Of a DNA stretch of 37,397 nucleotides, positions 22,594-34,245 are shown one piece after another. The notes beneath the pieces were generated by a model that did not search any database, had not been told where the DNA came from, and saw only the letters and a program-made list of their open reading frames with translations. The stretch's first letter is position 1, and the number at the start of each line of letters is the position of its first letter. Source of the DNA: Saprospiraceae bacterium (GTDB taxonomy: Bacteria > Bacteroidota > Bacteroidia > Chitinophagales > Saprospiraceae). Position numbers and translations under genes: made by a program. The stretch spans positions 1 through 37,397 of the forward strand of contig JAGNSQ010000018.1 of assembly GCA_017987975.1 (NCBI GenBank). The letters run 5' to 3'.

Positions 22594-24033
22594 CTAAAAG
22601 TAAAAATTTAGCACTACATTTAAAAGAGACATATCAACTTTATTGTAAACAAATTTATCGTTACCATAATTTTCTCCTATTTTCCATTTCTGAACGTATA
22701 AAATTTGTCCTTCCAATCCTTTGAGCCAGCCAGGAAAACTATACCGAACATCAACGTTGGCCTGGGCATAAGAAGGCATGCCGTATTTATTCAGGGTCAC
22801 ATTTTTTACGTCCGGCAGGTCAAAATAACCTCCGGCAAGGCTGAGCTTACACCTTTGATCGACAAAGTTTTTTGCCCATTGAAGGGTAATGGCATGTACA
22901 TCTCCATACCCATCGTTTCTTTCTCTTGGCATAAATGTGAAAAAGGCATCTCTCCCCCATTCCCTGGGCATCAGATACCTGCCCATTGGGGTTATTCTAT
23001 TGTAGGCCAAAGCAATAGTTCCATTACCTTTCGTAAAGGATATTTTGGAACCAAAGGTCAGAGCCAGGGCTCCTTTGTCCATATATCTGGAAGCATCATC
23101 AGTTACACCTCCACTTCCGGTCTCTTGTTGATAAATCAATTGAGCCGCTGCATACAGTTTAGAATTTTCGGAGACTTTTTTAGTAAAATCCAATTGGTAA
23201 TAAGAAGAATAAAAAAGGTTTATCACCATCATCTGCCAGGTCTGCCATTTCCATTGCTTGCCTACCGGACCGTTCATTCCTCCATAAATTATGCCCGGTA
23301 CTTCCAGTTTACCTTTATAGGCTGAAGCTTGTCCGCTCGTGGTTACGCCACCTGGGTAGAGGCCAATTGAAGACCCTACATTAAAATATCTGGAAGTACT
23401 TCTGGGCGAAACTCCGTAAATAAATCCACCCTCTATCCCTATATTTTTTGTCAATTTGCCCGAAAGCCACAGTCCATCTACAGCTGTAGGTCTCATCCTG
23501 CCGTCCTGTAAGTTAATAAAGGGGGTATTAATGTGTTGTTTGCCCAGAGTAACCGTAAAATGACTCCTTTTCCAGCTAAGGTACAATTCCTCGAGTCTGC
23601 TAACATCCAATTCATTGTCTTTGGGGGCAAGATCAAACAATCCGATTTCGTATCGATTGGCTTGCCCGGTAGTAGGGTCTGGCTTTAATAAGTCAGTTGA
23701 GGCTACATCAAAAACATAGACGCCACTCAGTCCAAATTTGAAACCATGGTATTGGGCAGTCTCAAATTTAAGGCCACCTCCCATGGCCAGGGCCCTGTCA
23801 TCTTTTAATTCACCCTTGTTTTGGGTCTGCATTAAAAAACTTCGGAAATGACCACTTACCCTGCCATGTTTAAATATGTCAATGAGTTTTTGGGTATCTC
23901 TGCTCTCTCCCTCGTTCTTCCAGATCCCTGGTCGTTCATTGAGTTCCTGGTGCTGGGCTAAGGAGGTAAAATAAAAAGAGATGAAGCAGGACATCCATGC
24001 CCATTTCATCCAACCTGGTATTTGTTTGATCAT
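22594..24033 (-). CDS. outer membrane porin-like beta-barrel protein (OprD-like)
   Basis: This 479-residue protein has a signal peptide (about residues 1-26, ending TSLAQ). A long series of alternating aromatic and polar strands ends in the C-terminal YNKVDMSLLNVVLNFYF, with a terminal phenylalanine as in outer membrane barrels. The segments FKHGRVSGHFRSFLM near residue 50 and WKRSHFTVTLGKQHINTPF resemble OprD-type porins. It sits 12 bases after the soxB-like gene. In this place it may let small sulfur anions or organic substrates into the periplasm (inference). The family assignment is moderately sure; the barrel nature is more so. Confidence 0.78.
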   Translation of the reverse strand: MIKQIPGWMKWAWMSCFISFYFTSLAQHQELNERPGIWKNEGESRDTQKLIDIFKHGRVSGHFRSFLMQTQNKGELKDDRALAMGGGLKFETAQYHGFKFGLSGVYVFDVASTDLLKPDPTTGQANRYEIGLFDLAPKDNELDVSRLEELYLSWKRSHFTVTLGKQHINTPFINLQDGRMRPTAVDGLWLSGKLTKNIGIEGGFIYGVSPRSTSRYFNVGSSIGLYPGGVTTSGQASAYKGKLEVPGIIYGGMNGPVGKQWKWQTWQMMVINLFYSSYYQLDFTKKVSENSKLYAAAQLIYQQETGSGGVTDDASRYMDKGALALTFGSKISFTKGNGTIALAYNRITPMGRYLMPREWGRDAFFTFMPRERNDGYGDVHAITLQWAKNFVDQRCKLSLAGGYFDLPDVKNVTLNKYGMPSYAQANVDVRYSFPGWLKGLEGQILYVQKWKIGENYGNDKFVYNKVDMSLLNVVLNFYF

Positions 24034-24045
24034 ATTACTGAATCA

Positions 24046-25731
24046 TCAATGAAAATTATAGGCTACTCCGCTTACCTGAGTAAGCAGGGTTTCCGGAGCA
24101 TCAAGGGCAATGGCATTTCGCTGAGGCTTTGGGGTAACAGGTGAGGCTACCGCCAAATAACCAACCATCACCTGATGCAAAGTCTCTGCTTTATTTTTGG
24201 CTTCGGCTACTCCTTTGATTCTGCACAATACATCTGCAGGATCACCATCCCTTTCACAGGCCAAAACAGAGTACAAACCATCTGCATCAATGGATTTTCC
24301 CCTGATACTAACCTCCTGCACCCGTTTGCCGGCTTCTCCAAAGGCATAAAATTTTACTTGCATGCCTTTAAACTTCACTACCCAACCGCCAAAACGTTTA
24401 GATGCATCCTTGGCAAAAACATTGTTCAATTCTTTTTCTAACCAATCTAACAGTTGACTACCTTTCACTTTAGCAGTGCGAATAGAACTGTCAACTGGCA
24501 ACATGTCATAAATGTACCCATGTACAATAGGTATATTGCCGGTATGATCAGGAGTAGCTCTGGGAGGACAAAATCTAAAGCCGTTGGAAAGAACCACATC
24601 AACATCGGGGTACTTCCAACTTAAGGCATCAAGAACCATGGTATCTATTGTATTCTCAATTACAAAATACCGATATAGTGGTATGGTGCTGTAACCCACC
24701 ACTGTATTGATATCTTTTTTAAATACCGATTCAGCCTTTTCTATCAAAACCTCCATTCCTCTGTCAGGTTTGTGTTTTGAAGCATCCACTTCTACAAGTG
24801 AATAAGAGTCGTTAATAATTTTACCCCCGGAAATCGTAAGCTCCAATTTACCTATAAAAGAGCCAAAGGCCCCCGGTTCCACTACTTTTGAAAACTTGCA
24901 TTGTATGGGTTTGCGCACTCTTTCGTGGGTATCGCCACCAAAAATATAATCGATGCCTGCCGCGTCTTCGTTGTTGGCCAGGGCAATCTGCTGAGACAAA
25001 CCAAGATGGGCCACCATGATCACAAAGTCACATTGTTCCTGATTTTTAAGGATGTCAACATAATGTTTTAGATTTTCATCCGGCTTGGTGTATACTATGC
25101 CCTTGCTATAATTGGGACTCTGTCTTAATGGGACCAGGTGATCCGTATACCCAAGGAAACCAATTTTGATGCCTTCCACATACCAAATGTAATACGGTGG
25201 AAAAATCAATTCACCTTTTACACCTCCTCCCACATCATGGTACATATTGGCACAAACCTTAGGAGCATTGAGTGAACCAAGCAGGGTTTGCATTTTTTTC
25301 TTCCCATAAATGACCTCCCAATTGCCCGGCAAATATAGGTCATACCCCATGGTATTAAGTATCGGAACAAAGGCTTCCCCAGTGGTTTTAACACTCAACT
25401 CACTGCCTTGAAACATATCACCTGTATCTACTGCAAAACTGTGTTTGTATTTAGATCGCAATTGATTAAGCGTAGATCGCAGAGGGCCATAACCACCAGT
25501 CTTTCTGAATACCATTTCGTCATTTTCCCAAAACATTTCGTCATGGGCATGAATCTGACAATGGACATCAGTGGTTTGAAAAATTCCAATTTTAACCTCC
25601 TTGTTTTTATCCTCAGACTCAAGGTCTATTTTCTGTTTTCCCAGCGCCCATTGAACTGGAGCAGCTGTACTCACTGCTGCGCCTAAAACAGATAACTGCT
25701 GCAGAAATTTTCTTCTATTTGCGTTTTTCAT
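24046..25731 (-). CDS. SoxB-like Tat-exported metallohydrolase (5'-nucleotidase superfamily)
   Basis: This 561-residue periplasmic enzyme has a Tat signal (RRKFLQ at residues 6-11 followed by a hydrophobic stretch). The metallophosphatase domain shows TDVH (54-57), VDTGD (101-105), GNWE (136-139) where nucleotidases have GNHE, AHLG with His242, and GGDTHE (265-270). The 5'-nucleotidase C-terminal domain follows from about residue 350. SoxB is the dimanganese thiosulfohydrolase that releases sulfate from a cysteine-bound thiosulfonate on SoxYZ. I favour a SoxB-like role because of the altered GNHE motif, the Tat signal, and an operon with TsdA-, DsrE- and YeeE-type genes. A true nucleotidase remains possible. 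The start shares one base with the dsrE-like stop. Confidence 0.8.
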   Translation of the reverse strand: MKNANRRKFLQQLSVLGAAVSTAAPVQWALGKQKIDLESEDKNKEVKIGIFQTTDVHCQIHAHDEMFWENDEMVFRKTGGYGPLRSTLNQLRSKYKHSFAVDTGDMFQGSELSVKTTGEAFVPILNTMGYDLYLPGNWEVIYGKKKMQTLLGSLNAPKVCANMYHDVGGGVKGELIFPPYYIWYVEGIKIGFLGYTDHLVPLRQSPNYSKGIVYTKPDENLKHYVDILKNQEQCDFVIMVAHLGLSQQIALANNEDAAGIDYIFGGDTHERVRKPIQCKFSKVVEPGAFGSFIGKLELTISGGKIINDSYSLVEVDASKHKPDRGMEVLIEKAESVFKKDINTVVGYSTIPLYRYFVIENTIDTMVLDALSWKYPDVDVVLSNGFRFCPPRATPDHTGNIPIVHGYIYDMLPVDSSIRTAKVKGSQLLDWLEKELNNVFAKDASKRFGGWVVKFKGMQVKFYAFGEAGKRVQEVSIRGKSIDADGLYSVLACERDGDPADVLCRIKGVAEAKNKAETLHQVMVGYLAVASPVTPKPQRNAIALDAPETLLTQVSGVAYNFH

Positions 25732-26147
25732 TAAAATCCTCCTTTAATGTATGACCAACCTTGTTCCTGCTTTTCCACAATCTCAGCGATTCCTGCAGGT
25801 ACAATTTCTGCTTCTTCGATCAATTCACCTGCTTTGATATTTCGTTGATTCATGGTGTTTTGACAAACCACAAACCTAACTCCAGCTTTTTTAAGATCGG
25901 CTATGATGTCATGGTGCCTGGTTCTTTTGTTCATCATAAAATCGATACCCTGGTTGTAAGCAACCACTTCAATTTGAGCTTCAGGCCAATGTTTCCTCAG
26001 GTTCTTCAACTGATTGCTAAAGGCTTTTTGCTGCATGGAATCAGCAAGGGTAAATTGGAAGACTACTTTGTGGTTGGCACCTTGTGCATAAGCATCCTGA
26101 GTCATAACTGACAGAAATGCTATAATTAAAAAGGTCAAGATTTTCAT
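25731..26147 (-). CDS. secreted DsrE-like protein with a single cysteine
   Basis: This 138-residue protein has an N-terminal signal peptide (about 1-21, ending DAYAQ) and one DsrE/DsrF-fold domain. The only cysteine is Cys95 in RFVVCQNTM, which matches the conserved active-site position of the family, where a persulfide is carried. Most DsrE proteins are cytoplasmic; a predicted export signal places this one in the periplasm. Its stop and the soxB-like start share a base (TAATG), so the two proteins are made together. This suggests a carrier role for the SoxB-like enzyme (inference). No other sulfur-carrier gene (SoxYZ) was seen in the window. Confidence 0.85.
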   Translation of the reverse strand: MKILTFLIIAFLSVMTQDAYAQGANHKVVFQFTLADSMQQKAFSNQLKNLRKHWPEAQIEVVAYNQGIDFMMNKRTRHHDIIADLKKAGVRFVVCQNTMNQRNIKAGELIEEAEIVPAGIAEIVEKQEQGWSYIKGGF

Positions 26148-26170: not shown

Positions 26171-27250
26171 CTATTTGTTTGATTTTTTATAAAACTCTTT
26201 TATGGGCTTATAAGGGCCATATTTGTGTTGTGATTCGGAAAAAGAATCGGCGTAGGGTCCGAATGGGTGGTCAAATGGTTTCTCTTCCAACTTTGGCCAA
26301 TCAGCAGATATATCAACTGATGGTCTAGGTTGTGAATTGACAAAACCAGCCAGATTCCAGGCTTCTGTATCCGTGATTTGTGGATGAAGATAACTGGCGC
26401 CTTGTGGCATATTGTACCTAACATAACCTGCAAACCTACTCATACGATAGAGACCTGCTCCCTGGTTGTAAGAATGAGGACCCCATAAAGGCGGGTAAGT
26501 ATACACCATGCCATCTTCTGCTTTTACCCCCTGACCATTTTGCTGGTGACAGCTGGCACACTTTTCAAAATAGACGATCCGACCTGCTGTCGTATCCAAA
26601 GCTTTATCAGGTAGGGGCAATTCAAAAATACCACTACCGGGTGGTTTTTCTCCTTTGCTGACTTTGCTCGCTAAATAGGCAATGTAGGCCTTTATAGCGA
26701 TCATCTCTTTAGAATTTTCTTCAAGGGCTTTTCCATTGAGACTTCTCTCCATGCAGTCATTAACCCTCTTGGTAAGGTCTTCAACGGCACCACTCCTTGC
26801 ACGATACTTGGGATATGTTGATGCAACCGCACCGTAATTATTGCCCCACGGCTTACTGCCACCTTCCAAATGGCAATTCTGACAGTTCATACCATTGGTG
26901 ATGGCTTTGACCTTACCCTTAGGACCCAGGTAATAAGCTGTATTTACAATCAGTTCTTTTCCATACTTAACCACATCCCAATCAGCTTTTGAGACGGTTG
27001 TACTATCGAGATCAGGAGCCTTCCACAAGGCGTCATATGATTTTTTCAGTTCAGCTTCTTTTAGCATTGTAGCAGCAATTCTTTCCCTTTCTTTAAGCTG
27101 ATTTTTATAGGTTTCCCATTTCGGAATCAAATAAAAATAAAGGGGAACTAAAACCATAGCTGCCAATAGAAGCTGAATTAAAACCATTGCCCGTCTAATG
27201 GCCTTAAATCGGGCTTCAATACTATCTTTGTCTGGCTTATGATATTCCAT
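26171..27250 (-). CDS. membrane-anchored dihaem cytochrome c of the TsdA (thiosulfate dehydrogenase) type
   Basis: This 359-residue protein has one N-terminal membrane helix (about 20-43) and two haem c motifs, CQNCH (123-127) and CASCH (231-235). Between them, KRVNDCMERSLNG places Cys166 39 residues after the first haem histidine, where TsdA has its unusual cysteine haem ligand. PPLWGPHSYNQGAGLYRM and VRYNMP in the second domain also match that family, with Met270 a candidate second ligand. TsdA oxidises two thiosulfates to tetrathionate, and the related SoxA joins thiosulfate to a carrier cysteine. The membrane anchor suggests electron delivery to the respiratory chain. It lies five bases after the second YeeE-like gene. 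Confidence 0.86.
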   Translation of the reverse strand: MEYHKPDKDSIEARFKAIRRAMVLIQLLLAAMVLVPLYFYLIPKWETYKNQLKERERIAATMLKEAELKKSYDALWKAPDLDSTTVSKADWDVVKYGKELIVNTAYYLGPKGKVKAITNGMNCQNCHLEGGSKPWGNNYGAVASTYPKYRARSGAVEDLTKRVNDCMERSLNGKALEENSKEMIAIKAYIAYLASKVSKGEKPPGSGIFELPLPDKALDTTAGRIVYFEKCASCHQQNGQGVKAEDGMVYTYPPLWGPHSYNQGAGLYRMSRFAGYVRYNMPQGASYLHPQITDTEAWNLAGFVNSQPRPSVDISADWPKLEEKPFDHPFGPYADSFSESQHKYGPYKPIKEFYKKSNK

Positions 27251-27255
27251 GATGA

Positions 27256-27792
27256 TTAGTGAGGTAGTTTATCTCTATAAAATCCATACAACCATGTACC
27301 CGCCAATGCACTCAACAAGGTAACCACAATTACGGTTGCACCCGTGCCAATTTGTGCAAAAAGTGGTCCCGGGCATGCCCCTGTAATAGCCCAACCTAGC
27401 CCAAATAAAATCCCTCCGTAAATTTGACCTTTGTTAAACACCTTGTCATGAAATTCAATGGTCTCACCATGGATGGTTTTAATATTGAACTTTTTGATCA
27501 GCCACACCGAAACCATCCCTACCATAATGGCACTGCCAATGACGCCATACATGTGGAATGACTGAAACCTGAACATCTCCTGTATACGAAACCAACTAAT
27601 AATTTCAGCTTTTACGAATACAATTCCAAAAAGGATGCCCACGGCCAAATACTTAAAGTTGTAATACCACTTGTGGTGCAAATGACTTTCATTGACACAC
27701 ACAGCATCCGTAGACCTTAATGTATAATCCTGTAGTTCTGATATTTCCTGAACCTCGCTATTCTGACTTGTTATTTCTTTGCTCATTTCCAT
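27256..27792 (-). CDS. YeeE/YedE-family membrane protein, second half (DUF6691-like)
   Basis: This 178-residue membrane protein has about 40 soluble N-terminal residues and then four probable membrane helices. It carries GQIYGGILFGLGWAITGACPGPLFAQIG, the GxCPG motif with Cys140 that marks the YeeE/YedE (TsuA-type thiosulfate transporter) family. The family's full-length members have two such repeats; here the other repeat is the preceding gene, six bases upstream. The two probably form a heterodimeric transporter for thiosulfate or another sulfur species, in which cysteines relay the substrate. A second in-frame ATG two codons later is an equally good start. Confidence 0.87.
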   Translation of the reverse strand: MEMSKEITSQNSEVQEISELQDYTLRSTDAVCVNESHLHHKWYYNFKYLAVGILFGIVFVKAEIISWFRIQEMFRFQSFHMYGVIGSAIMVGMVSVWLIKKFNIKTIHGETIEFHDKVFNKGQIYGGILFGLGWAITGACPGPLFAQIGTGATVIVVTLLSALAGTWLYGFYRDKLPH

Positions 27793-27798
27793 TTTGAA

Positions 27799-28374
27799 TT
27801 AAAGTGACAAAATAAATGGTAAAATGACATTGGCCATTAAAAAACCGCCTGCCATAAAACAACAAGTAGCTACTAATGACGGCCACTGCAAATTGGAAAT
27901 GCCCATGATGGCATGACCGCTGGTACAGCCCCCTGCATATCGAGTGCCAAAACCCACTAAAAAACCTCCAACTACCATTAGAATAAATCCTTTAACAGAC
28001 ATGAGTTCACCCCAGCTAAAAAGCTGACTAGGTACCAGGCCATGAAAATCGTTTATTCCATAGGAGGCTAACTCAATGGCTAAATTGGGATGTATCAGGA
28101 TGGGAGATGGGTTTTTAAGCAAGCTGATAGCTACAATCCCTCCTATTGCAATGCCGGCAACAAAAAAAAGGTTCCATATTTCCTTTTTCCAATCATATTT
28201 AAAAAATGGAATATTGGCAGGCAGACACATGGCACAAACATGCCTTAATGACGAACTGATACCAAAGGTCTTATTGCCAAGGATCAACAAAGCCGGAACC
28301 GTTAAACCTATAATTGGGCCCGCCACGTACCAGGGCCACGGTTGTTTGATAAATTCGATTATACACATTACCAC
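27799..28374 (-). CDS. YeeE/YedE-family membrane protein, first half
   Basis: This 191-residue integral membrane protein has about five hydrophobic segments. Conserved cysteines are seen at CAMC (Cys47 and Cys50) and in GFGTRYAGGCTSGHAIMG (Cys150), the latter being the classic YeeE/YedE repeat motif. In TsuA (YeeE) conserved cysteines pass thiosulfate through the channel; the same is likely here with the second half gene. It is the first gene of the operon running to the porin-like gene. Upstream I see no perfect TAnnTTTG element, so it may depend partly on transcription from the CstB-like gene 123 bases before it. Confidence 0.87.
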   Translation of the reverse strand: MVMCIIEFIKQPWPWYVAGPIIGLTVPALLILGNKTFGISSSLRHVCAMCLPANIPFFKYDWKKEIWNLFFVAGIAIGGIVAISLLKNPSPILIHPNLAIELASYGINDFHGLVPSQLFSWGELMSVKGFILMVVGGFLVGFGTRYAGGCTSGHAIMGISNLQWPSLVATCCFMAGGFLMANVILPFILSL

Positions 28375-28496: not shown

Positions 28497-29912
28497 TTAA
28501 CCCATGACTTTGCTCTGACAAACAAAGTCAGTCTTTGGTACTCCGGTTTTGGCAATGGCATTAAATCCACCTTCCACTTCTGTAAAGTTTCTATAACCTC
28601 GTGCCTGAAGAATGGAGGCGGCAATCATACTTCTGTAACCGCCGGCACAATGCAGGTAAAAATGTTCTTCAGGCTGCACGTCTTTTACCCATTCATTGAT
28701 GTAGGAAAGAGGTCTGTTATAAGCTTCGTCAATATGTTCTGCTGCATATTCAGATTCCTTTCTGATATCAATCACCTTACTCTCGCCTATAACCACTGCT
28801 TTAGCAAATTGATCAGCAGTTATTCTGACAACAGTGTCTATCTCTTTACCACTTGCACGCCAAGTTTCAAAACCGCCAGCCAGATGACCCAATACATTGT
28901 CAAAACCTACTCTACTTAATCTGGTCACTGCTTCTTCCTCTTTGCCGGGATCAGTTACCAGAAGAATTGGCTGTTTTACATCCGCAATCAAAGCTCCAAC
29001 CCATGGTGCGAAATCGCCGGTCAGCCCAATGTTTACACTCTGCGGAATGAAGCCTTTCCAAAACTCTCCATTGGCACGGGTATCTAATATCAAGGCACCG
29101 GTCTCTTCAGCCGCAACTTCAAATTCGGCTGCATTGAGGGATCTCAGCCCCTGATTCAATACGGTTTCAAAATTCTCATAACCCCCTTTATTCATGGCAA
29201 CATTGGCACCAAAATAAGCAGGAGGAGGTAATAGACCATCTGTTACTTCTTTGACAAACTCAACTTCCGTCATATTTGCCCTTAATGCGTAGTTATTCTT
29301 TTTTTGCTCACCAATAGTCGAAACCGTTTCTTTGCTCATATTTTTACCACAAGCACTTCCAGCTCCATGTGCCGGATAAACAATTACATCGTCTGCCAAA
29401 GTCATTACCTTATTTCTCAGTGAGTGAAATAATGTAGCTGCCAATTCTTCCTGGGTCATAGAAGCGGCTTTTTGAGCCAGGTCCGGCCTACCTACGTCTC
29501 CAATAAATAAAGTGTCGCCAGAAAATAATGCGTAATCTTTTCCATTTTCATCTTTCAACAGATAACAGGTACTTTCCATGGTGTGACCAGGTGTATGTAA
29601 CACTGTTATTGAAATTTTACCCACCTTAAAGGTTTGGCCATCTGCTGCCGATACAAAATTGAAACTGGGCTGGGCATTGGGACCATAAACTATCGGTGCT
29701 TTTGTTTTTTCACTAAGATCAAGGTGCCCGCTCACAAAATCAGCATGGAAGTGGGTTTCAAAAATATACTTGAGTTGTACCCCATCCTTTTCCAATCTTT
29801 CCAAATACGGCTTTACTTCTCTGAGTGGATCAATGATGGCAGCCTCTCCATCTGATGTAATGTAATAAGCGCCTTGCGCCAAACATCCTGTATAGATTTG
29901 TTCTATTTGCAT
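28497..29912 (-). CDS. CstB-like persulfide dioxygenase-rhodanese fusion, copy 1
   Basis: This 471-residue three-domain protein begins with a metallo-beta-lactamase-fold domain (1-230) containing HFHAD (His54, His56, Asp58), His110, Asp133 and His182. Phe59 stands where binuclear members have His, as expected for the mono-iron persulfide dioxygenases. GAGSACG holds Cys188, matching the extra cysteine of CstB. A first rhodanese domain (about 261-355) lacks a catalytic cysteine, and a second (about 363-460) has the active CAGGYRS loop with Cys422. This is the architecture of Staphylococcus aureus CstB, which turns persulfides into thiosulfate or sulfite. It is a paralogue of the gene at 32830-34245. 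Confidence 0.92.
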   Translation of the reverse strand: MQIEQIYTGCLAQGAYYITSDGEAAIIDPLREVKPYLERLEKDGVQLKYIFETHFHADFVSGHLDLSEKTKAPIVYGPNAQPSFNFVSAADGQTFKVGKISITVLHTPGHTMESTCYLLKDENGKDYALFSGDTLFIGDVGRPDLAQKAASMTQEELAATLFHSLRNKVMTLADDVIVYPAHGAGSACGKNMSKETVSTIGEQKKNNYALRANMTEVEFVKEVTDGLLPPPAYFGANVAMNKGGYENFETVLNQGLRSLNAAEFEVAAEETGALILDTRANGEFWKGFIPQSVNIGLTGDFAPWVGALIADVKQPILLVTDPGKEEEAVTRLSRVGFDNVLGHLAGGFETWRASGKEIDTVVRITADQFAKAVVIGESKVIDIRKESEYAAEHIDEAYNRPLSYINEWVKDVQPEEHFYLHCAGGYRSMIAASILQARGYRNFTEVEGGFNAIAKTGVPKTDFVCQSKVMG

Positions 29913-30253: not shown

Positions 30254-31453
30254 TTATGCAGTTCCTTTTAATATTTTGTTCCAATACAACCATGGAAGTC
30301 CATATTTTTTGAGGACCCACATTGACTTTTTAGGTTTGGTCTGGTCTATGGGAAAGCTCATTTTAGGTGTATTGCTGTAGTCAAATTCTGCCAACATCAG
30401 TTTGCCATATTGGGTTGGAATAGGACAGGCACTGTAGCCTTCATATCTGGCTATCAAGGGTTGGTTTTTCATAAAACTTATAACATTGGAGACTACCACG
30501 GGTGCTTGTTTTCTAATAGCGGCCCCGGTCTTACTGCAGGGTGCATTGGTACAATCTCCCAACGAAAAGACATTGGGAAAACGAATATGCTGCATGGTAT
30601 GTTTGTCGATTTCTACATACCCATAAGGGTTGTTAGCATCTTTGAGCTCACTGTGCTTGATGATGTCTGGTGCACTCATAGGAGGCACTGCGTGGCAAAA
30701 GTCAAAATCCAATGATTTAACGGTTAATTCTCCACTGGCAGATTTTTCTTCATAAAACACCTTTTTTGCCTGGCCATCTATACTCACAACATTGACTCCA
30801 AAGTGAGTATGTATGTCGCGTCTTTTGACAATTTTATTGAGTGTTTCTGCATACTCCTTAACGGCAAAAATAGCTCCTGCTCCTGAAAGGTAATGCACTT
30901 CATAAGGGATGCCCATCTTTTGCCAATAGTGAGTAGCTAAGTACATAATTTTGTGAGGAGCACCTCCACATTTTATGGGTGACACGGGATTGGTAAATAC
31001 CGCCTTTCCTCCTTTAAAGTTTTTAATCATTTCCCAGGTATAGGGTGCATGGCTGAATGAGTAGTTACAACTCACTTCGTTTTTACCCAGGGTTTCTTTC
31101 AATCCTTCGATTTTATCCCAGTCTATCTGGAGTCCGGGGCTTACCACCAAAATTTCATAACCAACAGATTCTCCGCTTGCCAGTGTAAGGCTATTGTCAT
31201 CAGGTTGAAATGAGACAACCGCATCTTTGATCCATTTAACTTTATCTGGCATGCAAGACTCTTGTGGTCTAACGGTTTTGTTGATATCAAATTCGCCAGC
31301 CCCAACCAGGGTCCAGGCGGGTTGATAAAAGTGTTTTTCTGAGGGCTCAACAATGGCTATGTCCAGATCTGCCTGACTGCGCAATAATTGGGCAGCCACT
31401 GAGATTCCGGCATTTCCTCCTCCTACAATTAAAATTTGGTGATAACGCGACAT
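30254..31453 (-). CDS. sqr: sulfide:quinone oxidoreductase, type II (human SQOR-like)
   Basis: This flavoprotein oxidises sulfide at the membrane, passes electrons to quinone and releases persulfide. I start at 31453 (MSRYHQILIVGGG), ten codons inside the longest frame, because the FAD-binding strand then begins normally; length 399. FAD motifs GGGNAG and GDCTNAP are clear. The redox cysteines match the two of human SQOR: Cys162 in IKCGGAPHKIMYL and Cys343 in YSACPIPT. The C-terminal segment AEFDYSNTPKMSFPIDQTKP and LPWLYWNKILKG, the membrane-associating part, also resembles the mitochondrial enzyme. It is flanked by cstB-like and tauE-like genes, which use or remove its products. Confidence 0.94.
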   Translation of the reverse strand: MSRYHQILIVGGGNAGISVAAQLLRSQADLDIAIVEPSEKHFYQPAWTLVGAGEFDINKTVRPQESCMPDKVKWIKDAVVSFQPDDNSLTLASGESVGYEILVVSPGLQIDWDKIEGLKETLGKNEVSCNYSFSHAPYTWEMIKNFKGGKAVFTNPVSPIKCGGAPHKIMYLATHYWQKMGIPYEVHYLSGAGAIFAVKEYAETLNKIVKRRDIHTHFGVNVVSIDGQAKKVFYEEKSASGELTVKSLDFDFCHAVPPMSAPDIIKHSELKDANNPYGYVEIDKHTMQHIRFPNVFSLGDCTNAPCSKTGAAIRKQAPVVVSNVISFMKNQPLIARYEGYSACPIPTQYGKLMLAEFDYSNTPKMSFPIDQTKPKKSMWVLKKYGLPWLYWNKILKGTA

Positions 31454-31638
31454 TTTGTTTGAATTTATCGCAATGATCAACAAAATTCAAATAATGTTAG
31501 GCAACAGTAGTCGCATTAAAACTAAACAACTAAATATCAATCACTTATATTGTTTTTCAAAAATGGAGCGAAATAATATTAGGTATAACCAACCTCAACC
31601 AGGCCAAATCCATATTATATTTGGTAGAGCATGTCATG

Positions 31639-31739: not shown

Positions 31740-32537
31740 TTACACTCCAAAAAATTCCTTTCCCAAAATATAGATTCCCATCACTAGTACAAACCATCCG
31801 AAAGCTGGTTTAAGTTTATTGCCGTCTATGTTTTTTGCCATCCTGCTTCCTATAAAAATGCCCAATATCGCAAAAGCAGATACGATGGCAAGAAACTGCC
31901 AGTCAGTATGGGTTTCGCCTCCTTCTCCAAAAAAACCAATCAATGATTTGGCGGCTATAATAACCAGCGAGGTGCCAACCGCCATTTTCATGGGCAGTTT
32001 ACTGAGCACAACCAGAGCAGGTATAATTAAAAATCCTCCTCCGGCACCAACCAAACCTGTAAGAATGCCTACTACAGCTCCTTCAAGTAATATGACCGGA
32101 TAATTGTACACACGTGGTCCACTTTCTTCCTTGGGTGCAGTGCTTTTTTTAATCATACTATACGATGCTGCAATCATCAAAAGGGCAAATAAACCCATCA
32201 AAAGCAATCTTTTGGTGAGGATAAAGCTGCCAATGGTAATTACTTCTGCAGGAATAGCCGGAACAATCCAGGCTCTGGTGAGAAAAACGGCGATGATAGA
32301 AGGTATCCCAAAAATGACAGCCGTTTTTATATCCACCAACTTATTGGAAAAGTAATTGATTGAACCTACAGCACTTGTCAAACCTACTATAAACAATGAA
32401 TAGGCTGTGGCCAACACTGGCTCCACGCCAAACAAATAAACCAAAACCGGTACGGTAAGAATGCTACCACCTCCACCTATCAAACCCAGGGAAACCCCAA
32501 TAAGGATCGAAGCAGCAAAGCCAATGTATTCCATCAT
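31740..32537 (-). CDS. TauE/SafE-family sulfite or sulfonate exporter
   Basis: This integral membrane protein of 265 residues is counted from the ATG at 32537 (MMEYIGFAASILIG); the frame is open from 32564 but the extra nine residues are polar and unlike the family. About eight hydrophobic segments and the repeated glycine motifs SLGLIGGGGSILTVPVLVY and LVGAGGGFLIIPALV, one in each half, identify the TauE/SafE family. Members export sulfite, sulfoacetate or related anions; in the staphylococcal cst operon a TauE accompanies SQR and CstB. It shares a 292-base divergent region with the second cstB-like gene. A sulfite-exporting role is inference from context. Confidence 0.9.
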   Translation of the reverse strand: MMEYIGFAASILIGVSLGLIGGGGSILTVPVLVYLFGVEPVLATAYSLFIVGLTSAVGSINYFSNKLVDIKTAVIFGIPSIIAVFLTRAWIVPAIPAEVITIGSFILTKRLLLMGLFALLMIAASYSMIKKSTAPKEESGPRVYNYPVILLEGAVVGILTGLVGAGGGFLIIPALVVLSKLPMKMAVGTSLVIIAAKSLIGFFGEGGETHTDWQFLAIVSAFAILGIFIGSRMAKNIDGNKLKPAFGWFVLVMGIYILGKEFFGV

Positions 32538-32578
32538 TTTATTTTTTGCAAAGGTCGCTATCACCTGCCAATAACTAA

Positions 32579-32829: not shown

Positions 32830-34245
32830 ATGAAGTTAGAGCAAATTTACACAGGTTGTATTGCCCACGCAGCCTATTATCTTGAGTCCAATGGAGAAGC
32901 TGCCATTTTTGATCCTTTAAGAGAAGTAGGCCCCTATTTGGAAAAAGCAGCAGTTGATCATGCAAAAATCAAATACGTTTTCGAAACCCACTTTCACGCT
33001 GATTTTGTAAGTGGTCATTTGGATTTACAACACAAAGCTGGGGCTGAGATCGTTTTTGGACCTACTGCAAAGCCAGGTTACACCGCTACCGTTGCTGCTG
33101 ACAATCAGATTTTCGAAGTAGGTGCCTGTAAAGTGAAAGTGATTCACACTCCTGGTCATACCATGGAATCAACTACTTACATGGTGATCGACGAAGAGGG
33201 AAAAGAACATGGACTGATCACCGGCGACACCCTCTTTATCGGTGACGTGGGTAGACCCGATCTGGCACAGCATGTAATTGCCGATCTTACTCAGGAAAAA
33301 CTGGCAGCCCACTTGTATGATTCTTTGAGAAACAAAATTATGCCTTTGAGCGATGACTTAATCGTTTATCCCAATCACGGTGCAGGAAGTGCCTGCGGTA
33401 AAAAAATGAGTAAGGAAACTACAGATACTCTCGGCAATCAGAAAAAAGTAAATTATGCCCTTGACCCCAGCTTGTCAAAAGAGGAGTTTATCAAAGTTCT
33501 CCTTGACGGTCTTACCACCCCTCCAGGCTATTTTCCACAAAATGTATTGTTGAATATAAAAGGATACGAGAGCCTTGATTCTGTGTTGGATAGAGCAAAA
33601 ACTCCTCTAAATGCTATAGAATTTGAGGTAGCCGCCAATGAAACACATGCGCTGATTCTTGATACACGTGATGGCAATGCTTTTTCCAAATCTTTCATTC
33701 CCAACTCAATCAATATTGGAATCGATGGCAATTTTGCCCAATGGGTAGGTGAAATGATTCCAGACGTCACCCAGGAAATCCTATTGATTGCTGAACCTGC
33801 AAGATTGGAGGAAAGTCTAATCCGTCTGTCTAGAGTTGGATATGACAATGTAATTGGGTACTTAAAAGATGGATACCAAACCTGGCTGGAGTCTGGCAAA
33901 GAGACCGATTCAATGGATCGCATCACGGCTCAGGAGTTTGAAAGCCTGTTCAAAAAAGGTGAAAACATCCTTTTTGATGTCAGAAAGAAGAGCGAGTACG
34001 ATGCTGAGCATGTGGTAGGAGCCATCAATGTACCTTTAAACCAAATCAACCAACACCTGGCAGAATTTCCAAAAGACAAACAATTTACAATTTATTGTGC
34101 CGGTGGATATAGAAGTATGATAGCTGGTTCTATCCTAAAACAGAGGGGCTGGAACAATTTTGTGGATGTCATAGGAGGTTTTGGAGCCATTTCTAAACAA
34201 GATGTTGCAAAGACCGAATACGTTTGTCCTACTACCATGCTGTAA
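32830..34245 (+). CDS. CstB-like persulfide dioxygenase-rhodanese fusion, copy 2
   Basis: This is a 471-residue paralogue of the protein encoded at 28497-29912, with the same length and domain order. The dioxygenase domain has HFHADF (His54, His56, Asp58, Phe59), His110, Asp133, His183 and Cys189 in GAGSACG. The first rhodanese domain has no catalytic cysteine and the second has CAGGYRS with Cys423. All catalytic residues are kept, so it should be active on persulfides. It is divergent from the tauE-like gene, has its own terminator, and its upstream palindromes differ from those of copy 1. The two copies may therefore be used under different conditions. Confidence 0.92.
   Translation: MKLEQIYTGCIAHAAYYLESNGEAAIFDPLREVGPYLEKAAVDHAKIKYVFETHFHADFVSGHLDLQHKAGAEIVFGPTAKPGYTATVAADNQIFEVGACKVKVIHTPGHTMESTTYMVIDEEGKEHGLITGDTLFIGDVGRPDLAQHVIADLTQEKLAAHLYDSLRNKIMPLSDDLIVYPNHGAGSACGKKMSKETTDTLGNQKKVNYALDPSLSKEEFIKVLLDGLTTPPGYFPQNVLLNIKGYESLDSVLDRAKTPLNAIEFEVAANETHALILDTRDGNAFSKSFIPNSINIGIDGNFAQWVGEMIPDVTQEILLIAEPARLEESLIRLSRVGYDNVIGYLKDGYQTWLESGKETDSMDRITAQEFESLFKKGENILFDVRKKSEYDAEHVVGAINVPLNQINQHLAEFPKDKQFTIYCAGGYRSMIAGSILKQRGWNNFVDVIGGFGAISKQDVAKTEYVCPTTML

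Follow-up and report, generated by a model that had tools for sequence, protein, structure and literature searches.

In textbook accounts of periplasmic thiosulfate oxidation, the carrier is SoxYZ. The present study concerns a window of 37,397 nucleotides (the whole stretch analysed; Saprospiraceae bacterium, GenBank assembly GCA_017987975.1, contig JAGNSQ010000018.1) and, within it, a dsrE-type gene encoding a predicted exported protein with a single cysteine, which lies between genes for a TsdA-type cytochrome and a SoxB-like hydrolase. Several described systems come close to parts of this arrangement. The DsrE-fold protein DsrE3A of Metallosphaera cuprina reacts with tetrathionate in vitro to give a cysteine thiosulfonate, and it did not react with polysulfide, thiosulfate, sulfide or glutathione persulfide (PMC4175335). 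In Erythrobacter flavus 21-3, thiosulfate is oxidized by TsdA, SoxB and dioxygenases without SoxYZ, a pathway supported by mutants, and Bacteroidetes were named among the bearers of tsdA plus soxB (PMC7608252). Orf1 of Starkeya novella (Snov_0966), a protein of the DUF1791 type encoded in the sox cluster, has been described as a putative membrane anchor (PMC3797975). For SoxT1A, a YeeE-like importer of Hyphomicrobium, the release of sulfane sulfur from its carrier was left open, a DsbA protein having been no more than considered (PMC11582611). Among the full-text literature matches listed, a scope that subscription papers mostly lie outside, no account of an exported DsrE protein as a carrier was found.

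The exported DsrE protein is probably a periplasmic sulfur carrier or shuttle in the oxidation of thiosulfate or tetrathionate. The DsrE fold, the predicted leader, the invariant cysteine, the tight and recurring gene linkage, the export signals of both DsrE and the SoxB-like protein and the lack of a SoxY match are directly supported. Since SoxYZ was not found with the recurring gene set, the protein may do the job of SoxYZ outside the cell membrane. More narrowly, and tentatively, it could be the substrate-bearing carrier of the SoxB-like enzyme in a thiosulfate module where SoxYZ was not found.

The open reading frame that the initial annotation had proposed as DsrE-like lies on the minus strand, and its product of 138 amino acids matches the Pfam family DsrE (PF02635) with 42.6 bits against a gathering cut-off of 22.7; none of the NCBIfam models was matched at 0.001. 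Its nearest natural solved sequences are the archaeal proteins MTH1491 (1l1s, E-value 2e-15) and ST0148 (2pd2, E-value 4e-12). A structure model, for which 26 natural relatives were used beside the window protein, has a mean predicted local distance difference test score of 91.1 and matches 1l1s with a Z-score of 20.6 and a root-mean-square deviation of 1.1 over 111 residues, and 2pd2 with a Z-score of 19.5; YchN (Z 14.8) and the DsrE of DsrEFH (Z 13.5) are among the further matches. The folded domain begins at about residue 25 (matched range 25-136), and residues 2-19 form an N-terminal helix outside that range. Cys95 (C95), in the sequence VVCQNT, is the sole cysteine of the protein and aligns with the cysteine of the CxN motif in 1l1s and 2pd2. 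It is invariant in a 27-sequence alignment (A4) and in all 35 sequences of another (A2), which takes in a second, divergent exported group and in which C95 and M1 are the only invariant columns. One further cysteine is present in many relatives, so that the possession of exactly one is not a family trait. By Pfam score, fold and active-site cysteine, the protein is an MTH1491-type member of the DsrE family. No DsrF or DsrH (TusC, TusB) partner was found among the operon proteins scanned; the genome was not searched for such partners.

The N-terminus of the protein, MKILTFLIIAFLSVMTQDAYA followed by QG, is predicted to be a Sec-type leader; the call is made from hydropathy, an A-x-A site before Q, and conservation. 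The highest hydropathy over ten residues is 3.16 in the leader, against a maximum of 2.0 anywhere in residues 22-138. In a 24-sequence alignment (A1), Q22 is invariant and A21 is retained in at least 90% of the sequences. Two orthologues from the same genus share only 11/21 and 7/21 residues of the leader but 112/117 and 107/117 of the residues after the site, as expected of a peptide that is removed. A mis-called start was considered and rejected: the fold begins only near residue 25, M15 is the sole further in-frame ATG upstream of that point, and a full leader is retained in the aligned homologues. Export, a conserved cysteine and SoxB-like and TsdA-like neighbours, all of which had been suggested from the sequence at first sight, are thus borne out, the first as a prediction, and the start and the cysteine both withstood the checks that had been named for them.

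The linkage was followed through 56 DsrE loci found in a collection with one genome per species, 55 of them in Bacteroidota by title; the remaining locus, from Lautropia, carries a canonical SoxB and is counted among the 56. Flanks of up to 10 kb were read (some contigs are shorter), a partner was scored when its match exceeded 100 bits, and distances were taken between the ends of tblastn matches rather than of genes. A SoxB-like match was found at 41 loci and a TsdA match at 40, with both present at 36, either at 45 and neither at 11. At 41/56 loci, the end of a SoxB-like or TsdA match lies within 400 bp on the same strand. YeeE-type matches accompany dsrE at 42 loci, the porin at 38 and TauE at 26. 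Two Runella plasmids (records of 45 and 48 kb) carry TauE, two metallo-beta-lactamase (MBL) proteins, a cytochrome c, DsrE, the SoxB-like protein, OprD, YeeE and DUF6691. In 392 genomes of the window's phylum, the window's own included, a DsrE match at an E-value of 1e-5 is present in 28, and a SoxB-like match (1e-40) was found in 11/28 of these vs 11/364 of the others, which gives a Fisher p of 1.3e-8 with relatedness left uncorrected. Of the SoxB-like genomes that gave no DsrE match at 1e-5, three (G160, G325 and G423) were found to carry a divergent exported DsrE directly beside the SoxB-like gene, in a search that used a laxer threshold on 8 chosen genomes with no background.

SoxY was found in none of 37 genomes (the window's included; 35 with a DsrE match), the genomes of the 56 loci having been searched only where identical. 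As a control, the SoxY model exceeded its cut-off in 41/392 genomes of the phylum, and these 41 include neither a SoxB-like nor a DsrE genome; all 22 SoxB-like genomes among the 392 are without a SoxY match. SoxZ was also found in 0/37 genomes, in a search whose controls gave no match either. In its genes the window agrees with the TsdA-SoxB-SDO pathway of the E. flavus type, with tsdA, a soxB-like gene and MBL-rhodanese genes present and no SoxY found.

The twin-arginine leader of the SoxB-like protein is invariant in a 22-sequence alignment (A5). The structure model of this protein gave Z-scores of 38.6-39.4 to five SoxB entries vs 35.1 or less to nucleotidases; in the Foldseek ranking by E-value, a nucleotidase stands first. 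Among 87 SoxB-like matches, the motif reads GNWE in 68, HW, as in canonical SoxB, in 17 and GNHD in 2; some genomes are counted twice, under a genome handle and as a named locus, so the 68 GNWE matches are not 68 genomes. The motif is presumably to be read as Trp standing where nucleotidases have His (xHWE or GNWE against GNHD). In the alignment with the SoxB-SoxYZ complex 4uwq, the position of this Trp is taken by Cys in the SoxB chain. The A5 alignment also shows five invariant cysteines in the SoxB-like protein, among them C388 (in SNGFRFCPPR), and nearly all of the five are missing from the aligned canonical SoxB rows. C388 was considered as a carrier cysteine; it is absent from 39-43% identical SoxB-like rows with an adjacent exported DsrE (G160, G325), is therefore not general and was rejected. 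The cytochrome matches PF21342 and Cytochrom_C, has two CxxCH hemes and aligns with Allochromatium TsdA (4wq7) with an E-value of 6e-39. The TsdA cysteine, which we take to be a heme ligand, is aligned in the window protein and was retained in 69/69 tblastn matches covering the position.

Along the minus strand, the operon runs from an MBL-rhodanese gene through two YeeE-type halves, the TsdA-type cytochrome, dsrE and the SoxB-like gene to an OprD-like porin (Table 1). The stop codon of dsrE and the ATG of the soxB-like gene overlap in TAATG.

Table 1. Features of the dsrE locus in the window
Feature	Position	Strand	Remarks
dsrE-type gene, 138 amino acids, predicted exported single-cysteine carrier	25731..26147	-	ATG start, Pfam match, model
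Leader peptide (predicted), residues 1-21	26085..26147	-	site between AYA and QG
Codon of C95	25863..25865	-	invariant cysteine of VCxNT motif
OprD-like outer-membrane porin	22594..24033	-	
SoxB-like hydrolase, 561 amino acids	24046..25731	-	twin-arginine leader RRKFLQ, GNWE motif
TsdA-type diheme cytochrome c	26171..27250	-	hydrophobic stretch near N-terminus; NDCMERS cysteine retained
YeeE/YedE-type half transporter	27256..27792	-	Sulf_transp/DUF6691
YeeE/YedE-type half transporter	27799..28374	-	Sulf_transp
Metallo-beta-lactamase + rhodanese domains	28497..29912	-	persulfide-dioxygenase-like
Sulfide:quinone-reductase-like flavoprotein	30254..31483	-	below NCBIfam cut-off
TauE/SafE-type exporter	31740..32564	-	
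Second metallo-beta-lactamase + rhodanese protein	32830..34245	+	divergent

The flavoprotein listed in Table 1 matches the model of type III selenoprotein sulfide:quinone reductase with 230 of the 525 bits of its cut-off, and a gathering search of the window against Rfam returned four tRNA matches only. Variants of the operon were observed in other genomes. In some Flavobacterium, a 426-residue protein is encoded between dsrE and the soxB-like gene (L139:10947-12224, also L142 and L144); the L139 copy is of the FadL/OMPP1 type (PF03349) and may provide the module with an additional channel through the outer membrane. Genomes G395 and G125 have the operon divided over two places, with odd YeeE/TsdA-containing open reading frames at one of them (L129:10469-10861, L128:11448-13535). 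Three loci of one genus (L118, L119 and L120, in genomes G250, G133 and G168) have a SoxB-like protein 66-67% identical to that of the window beside a cytochrome c of 327-338 residues, with no further sulfur genes in view, and its function there may differ.

If DsrE is the carrier, the following course can be proposed. The TsdA-type cytochrome, judged by its family, would oxidize thiosulfate to tetrathionate, and C95 would attack the tetrathionate and retain a Cys-S-S-SO3 group, for which DsrE3A is a precedent (PMC4175335). The SoxB-like hydrolase would then remove sulfate, leaving a persulfide on C95, from which the sulfane sulfur could be passed to the YeeE-type importers (compare SoxT1A, PMC11582611). 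In the cytoplasm the MBL-rhodanese proteins would oxidize the imported sulfur, and sulfite might leave through TauE. The reading as a carrier is favoured because dsrE overlaps the soxB-like gene and adjoins the other partner genes. Its most far-reaching version is rather unlikely, namely that a DsrE-fold protein has replaced SoxYZ as a second, unrelated covalent carrier, loaded by TsdA-made tetrathionate and served by an adapted SoxB-type hydrolase, in a plasmid-mobile module.

Several observations weigh against DsrE as the carrier of the SoxB-like enzyme. The SoxB-like protein scores 211 bits with the SoxB model TIGR04486, whose cut-off is 550. In the model, C95 lies where a strand meets a helix, whereas the cysteine of SoxY is on a swinging arm, the C-terminal GGCGG. 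The window's genome is 90.85% complete, which limits the SoxY negative. A SoxB-like match at 1e-40 is missing in 17/28 DsrE genomes of the phylum and neither partner exceeds 100 bits at 11/56 loci, so exported DsrE also occurs elsewhere; among these 11, L141 has a short TsdA match, and L141 and L179 have YeeE and MBL matches. At 9/56 loci, all of them among these 11, none of the window's other operon genes was found in the available flanks, and at three of the nine (L162, L177, L182) the near neighbours look unrelated to sulfur. Conversely, three genomes of one genus (G250, G133 and G168) have the SoxB-like gene without an adjacent DsrE or a visible sulfur setting, and in G246 the cluster is complete but has no DsrE adjoining the SoxB-like gene; these four carry only weaker exported DsrE matches elsewhere in the genome, and G417 carries none. 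The TsdA and SoxB mutants of E. flavus were explained without any carrier (PMC7608252), and in Pseudomonadota exported DsrE coexists with SoxYZ, as set out below.

A possible, though somewhat doubtful, alternative is that DsrE acts further downstream: the SoxB-like enzyme would hydrolyse free tetrathionate, as has been proposed for E. flavus, and DsrE would pick up the released sulfane sulfur as a persulfide for the YeeE-type importer. The TsdA-SoxB pathway that the E. flavus mutants support without SoxYZ (PMC7608252) agrees with this, as do the YeeE-type matches found with dsrE at 42/56 loci and the open question of sulfur release for SoxT1A, for which DsbA was no more than considered (PMC11582611). 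The overlap or adjacency of dsrE with the SoxB-like and TsdA genes, however, points to the upstream steps, and DsrE3A reacted with tetrathionate and not with polysulfide or glutathione persulfide (PMC4175335).

This alternative is favoured where exported DsrE co-occurs with SoxYZ, that is in Pseudomonadota, since a shuttle fits better than a substrate carrier in clusters that already bear SoxYZ. A second sample comprised 328 genomes of the phylum of the Lautropia metagenome-assembled genome (MAG), taken as Pseudomonadota from the title of that MAG, of which 52 gave a DsrE profile match at 1e-10. SoxY was present in 43/52 of the genomes with exported-type DsrE vs 63/276 of the others, an odds ratio of 16 with p 2.7e-16 when relatedness is left uncorrected. 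The distance from dsrE to a SoxY gene is within 20 kb in at least 19 genomes; in 13 of these it is 3.6-4.3 kb and spans soxZ, soxA and soxB in the regions read. The 31 regions that were read cover 34 of the 85 listed DsrE matches; canonical SoxA, SoxB or SoxY matches were found in 11/31, and SoxC or SoxD in 9/12 regions with any sox hit. Because it is found with SoxY and sox genes, the exported DsrE of Pseudomonadota appears to be a companion of the Sox pathway and not a replacement of SoxYZ. The idea that it stands in for a missing SoxCD was rejected for this phylum on the SoxC and SoxD matches just given. Two sphingomonad plasmid clusters, with a SoxB-like protein, YeeE, MBL and TauE and with TsdA unannotated, carry a leader-bearing DsrE with one cysteine in the mature part. 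In the Lautropia MAG (L187/L250), soxB of a sox cluster is followed immediately by a gene for an exported-type DsrE, in which, in this record, an in-frame stop separates the leader from the mature protein.

It is improbable that DsrE is instead a structural or regulatory accessory, holding the periplasmic enzymes in place, helping them to assemble or offering sulfur to a sensor, and not itself a stoichiometric intermediate. The S. novella DUF1791 protein, encoded in the sox cluster, was described as a putative membrane anchor (PMC3797975), the DsrE match of Spirosoma linguale is annotated DUF1791, and an exported DsrE beside Sox systems with SoxC or SoxD has no obvious chemical gap to fill; yet no stretch of the window protein beyond its leader is comparably hydrophobic, and an anchor would not need an invariant cysteine. 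Least probable of all is a periplasmic buffer for thiols or persulfides in general that is not dedicated to thiosulfate oxidation and whose linkage reflects co-regulation with sulfur stress genes, as the 9/56 loci without the window's other operon genes, three of them with neighbours seemingly unrelated to sulfur, would allow, but the tight and repeated linkage over many families and on plasmids and the strong co-occurrence with SoxB-like proteins and with SoxY speak against it.

A periplasmic carrier of this fold had been expected to be unusual in itself, and this expectation fails on frequency. Besides the 28/392 genomes of the phylum, DsrE matches were found in 9/60 close relatives (the window's own genome included), and a hydropathy rule for the leader was passed by 54/54 readable named rows from Bacteroidota and by 32/34 DsrE open reading frames from the 31 Pseudomonadota regions; because the choice of starts leaned towards a hydrophobic N-terminus, these counts are a rule of thumb. 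L172, from which the DsrE was not extracted, was dropped, and L187 was kept out of the named rows. The rule was failed by 15/141 rows: in seven of these a leader is seen when a different in-frame Met is taken as the start (L009, L013, L041, L034, two from L190, and L191), one is the Lautropia row (L187/L250), whose leader is cut off from the mature part by the stop, and the remaining seven are a second open reading frame of L230, L265, two haloarchaeal rows, Deinococcus and two stretches from the PDB typed without their N-termini. The leaderless members in the set are haloarchaeal, from Deinococcus, and a few others. By these counts the exported protein is a common form and not a rare one, and is hardly studied as far as the literature matches listed show.

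It had also been asked whether the exported members form one clade tied to SoxB-like and TsdA-like genes. After removal of near copies (141 to 119 rows; 118 columns), the tree showed 11 changes between exported and leaderless labels, some due to wrongly picked starts, and weak deep forks, and the leaderless archaeal and Deinococcus rows fall among exported ones; a single exported clade is therefore unsupported in this strict form. The tie to SoxB-like and TsdA-like genes was seen mainly in Bacteroidota; the Pseudomonadota members go with canonical sox genes in 11/31 regions. Two single loci may be added. The window's own genome encodes a second exported DsrE-fold protein (L004; G000:C151, match 2622-2936, + strand), with CGTC at the active site and the leader MKSKNIFILLFVFCLTSVVMYAQ, which lies near a leaderless DsrE (L001). 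On a plasmid of Deinococcus psychrotolerans (L261), a leaderless DsrE of the same branch is encoded beside YeeE, DUF6691, TauE and rhodanese genes and is a possible cytoplasmic counterpart.

The exported DsrE bears on two questions: by what route sulfate is released in bacteria that have TsdA and SoxB but lack SoxYZ, and in what way periplasmic sulfane sulfur reaches importers of the YeeE type. A small exported protein with a single cysteine makes both testable. A function would be assigned to the common annotation 'DsrE family protein' in two large phyla, and the findings would suggest that Bacteroidota have a compact thiosulfate module which is sometimes carried on plasmids.

When compared with the known systems, the window protein is closest, by sequence and by model, to the natural structures of MTH1491 (1l1s) and ST0148 (2pd2), which have the same cysteine; they differ in that the solved chains (111 and 108 residues) have no leader, and both are titled as of unknown function. 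From the DsrEFH/TusBCD relay it differs in location: the relay is cytoplasmic, whereas the window protein has a conserved leader with a predicted A-x-A site before Q. It resembles DsrE3A in its fold and active-site cysteine, DsrE3A being the protein that forms a thiosulfonate from tetrathionate; DsrE3A, however, has two cysteines, is partnered by TusA beside Hdr-like genes and belongs to another DsrE subgroup, and its export is undescribed in the portion of the report used (PMC4175335). With the SoxYZ-SoxAX-SoxB system the module shares periplasmic chemistry, a SoxB-type hydrolase and a cytochrome domain of the SoxA/TsdA type; it differs in that no SoxY was found with it, and its carrier, if any, is of an unrelated fold. 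The likeness to the TsdA-SoxB-SdoA/B pathway of E. flavus lies in TsdA, the SoxB-like and MBL-rhodanese proteins and the lack of SoxYZ, and DsrE has 0 occurrences in the main text of that paper, to which the count applies (PMC7608252). Judged from its description, Orf1 of S. novella, an organism with a complete Sox cluster, is probably also an exported DsrE of this type encoded among sox genes (PMC3797975). Oxidation by TsdA and SoxB and a sox-linked DUF1791 protein are thus already in print, and what is new is the setting of an exported DsrE in this module.

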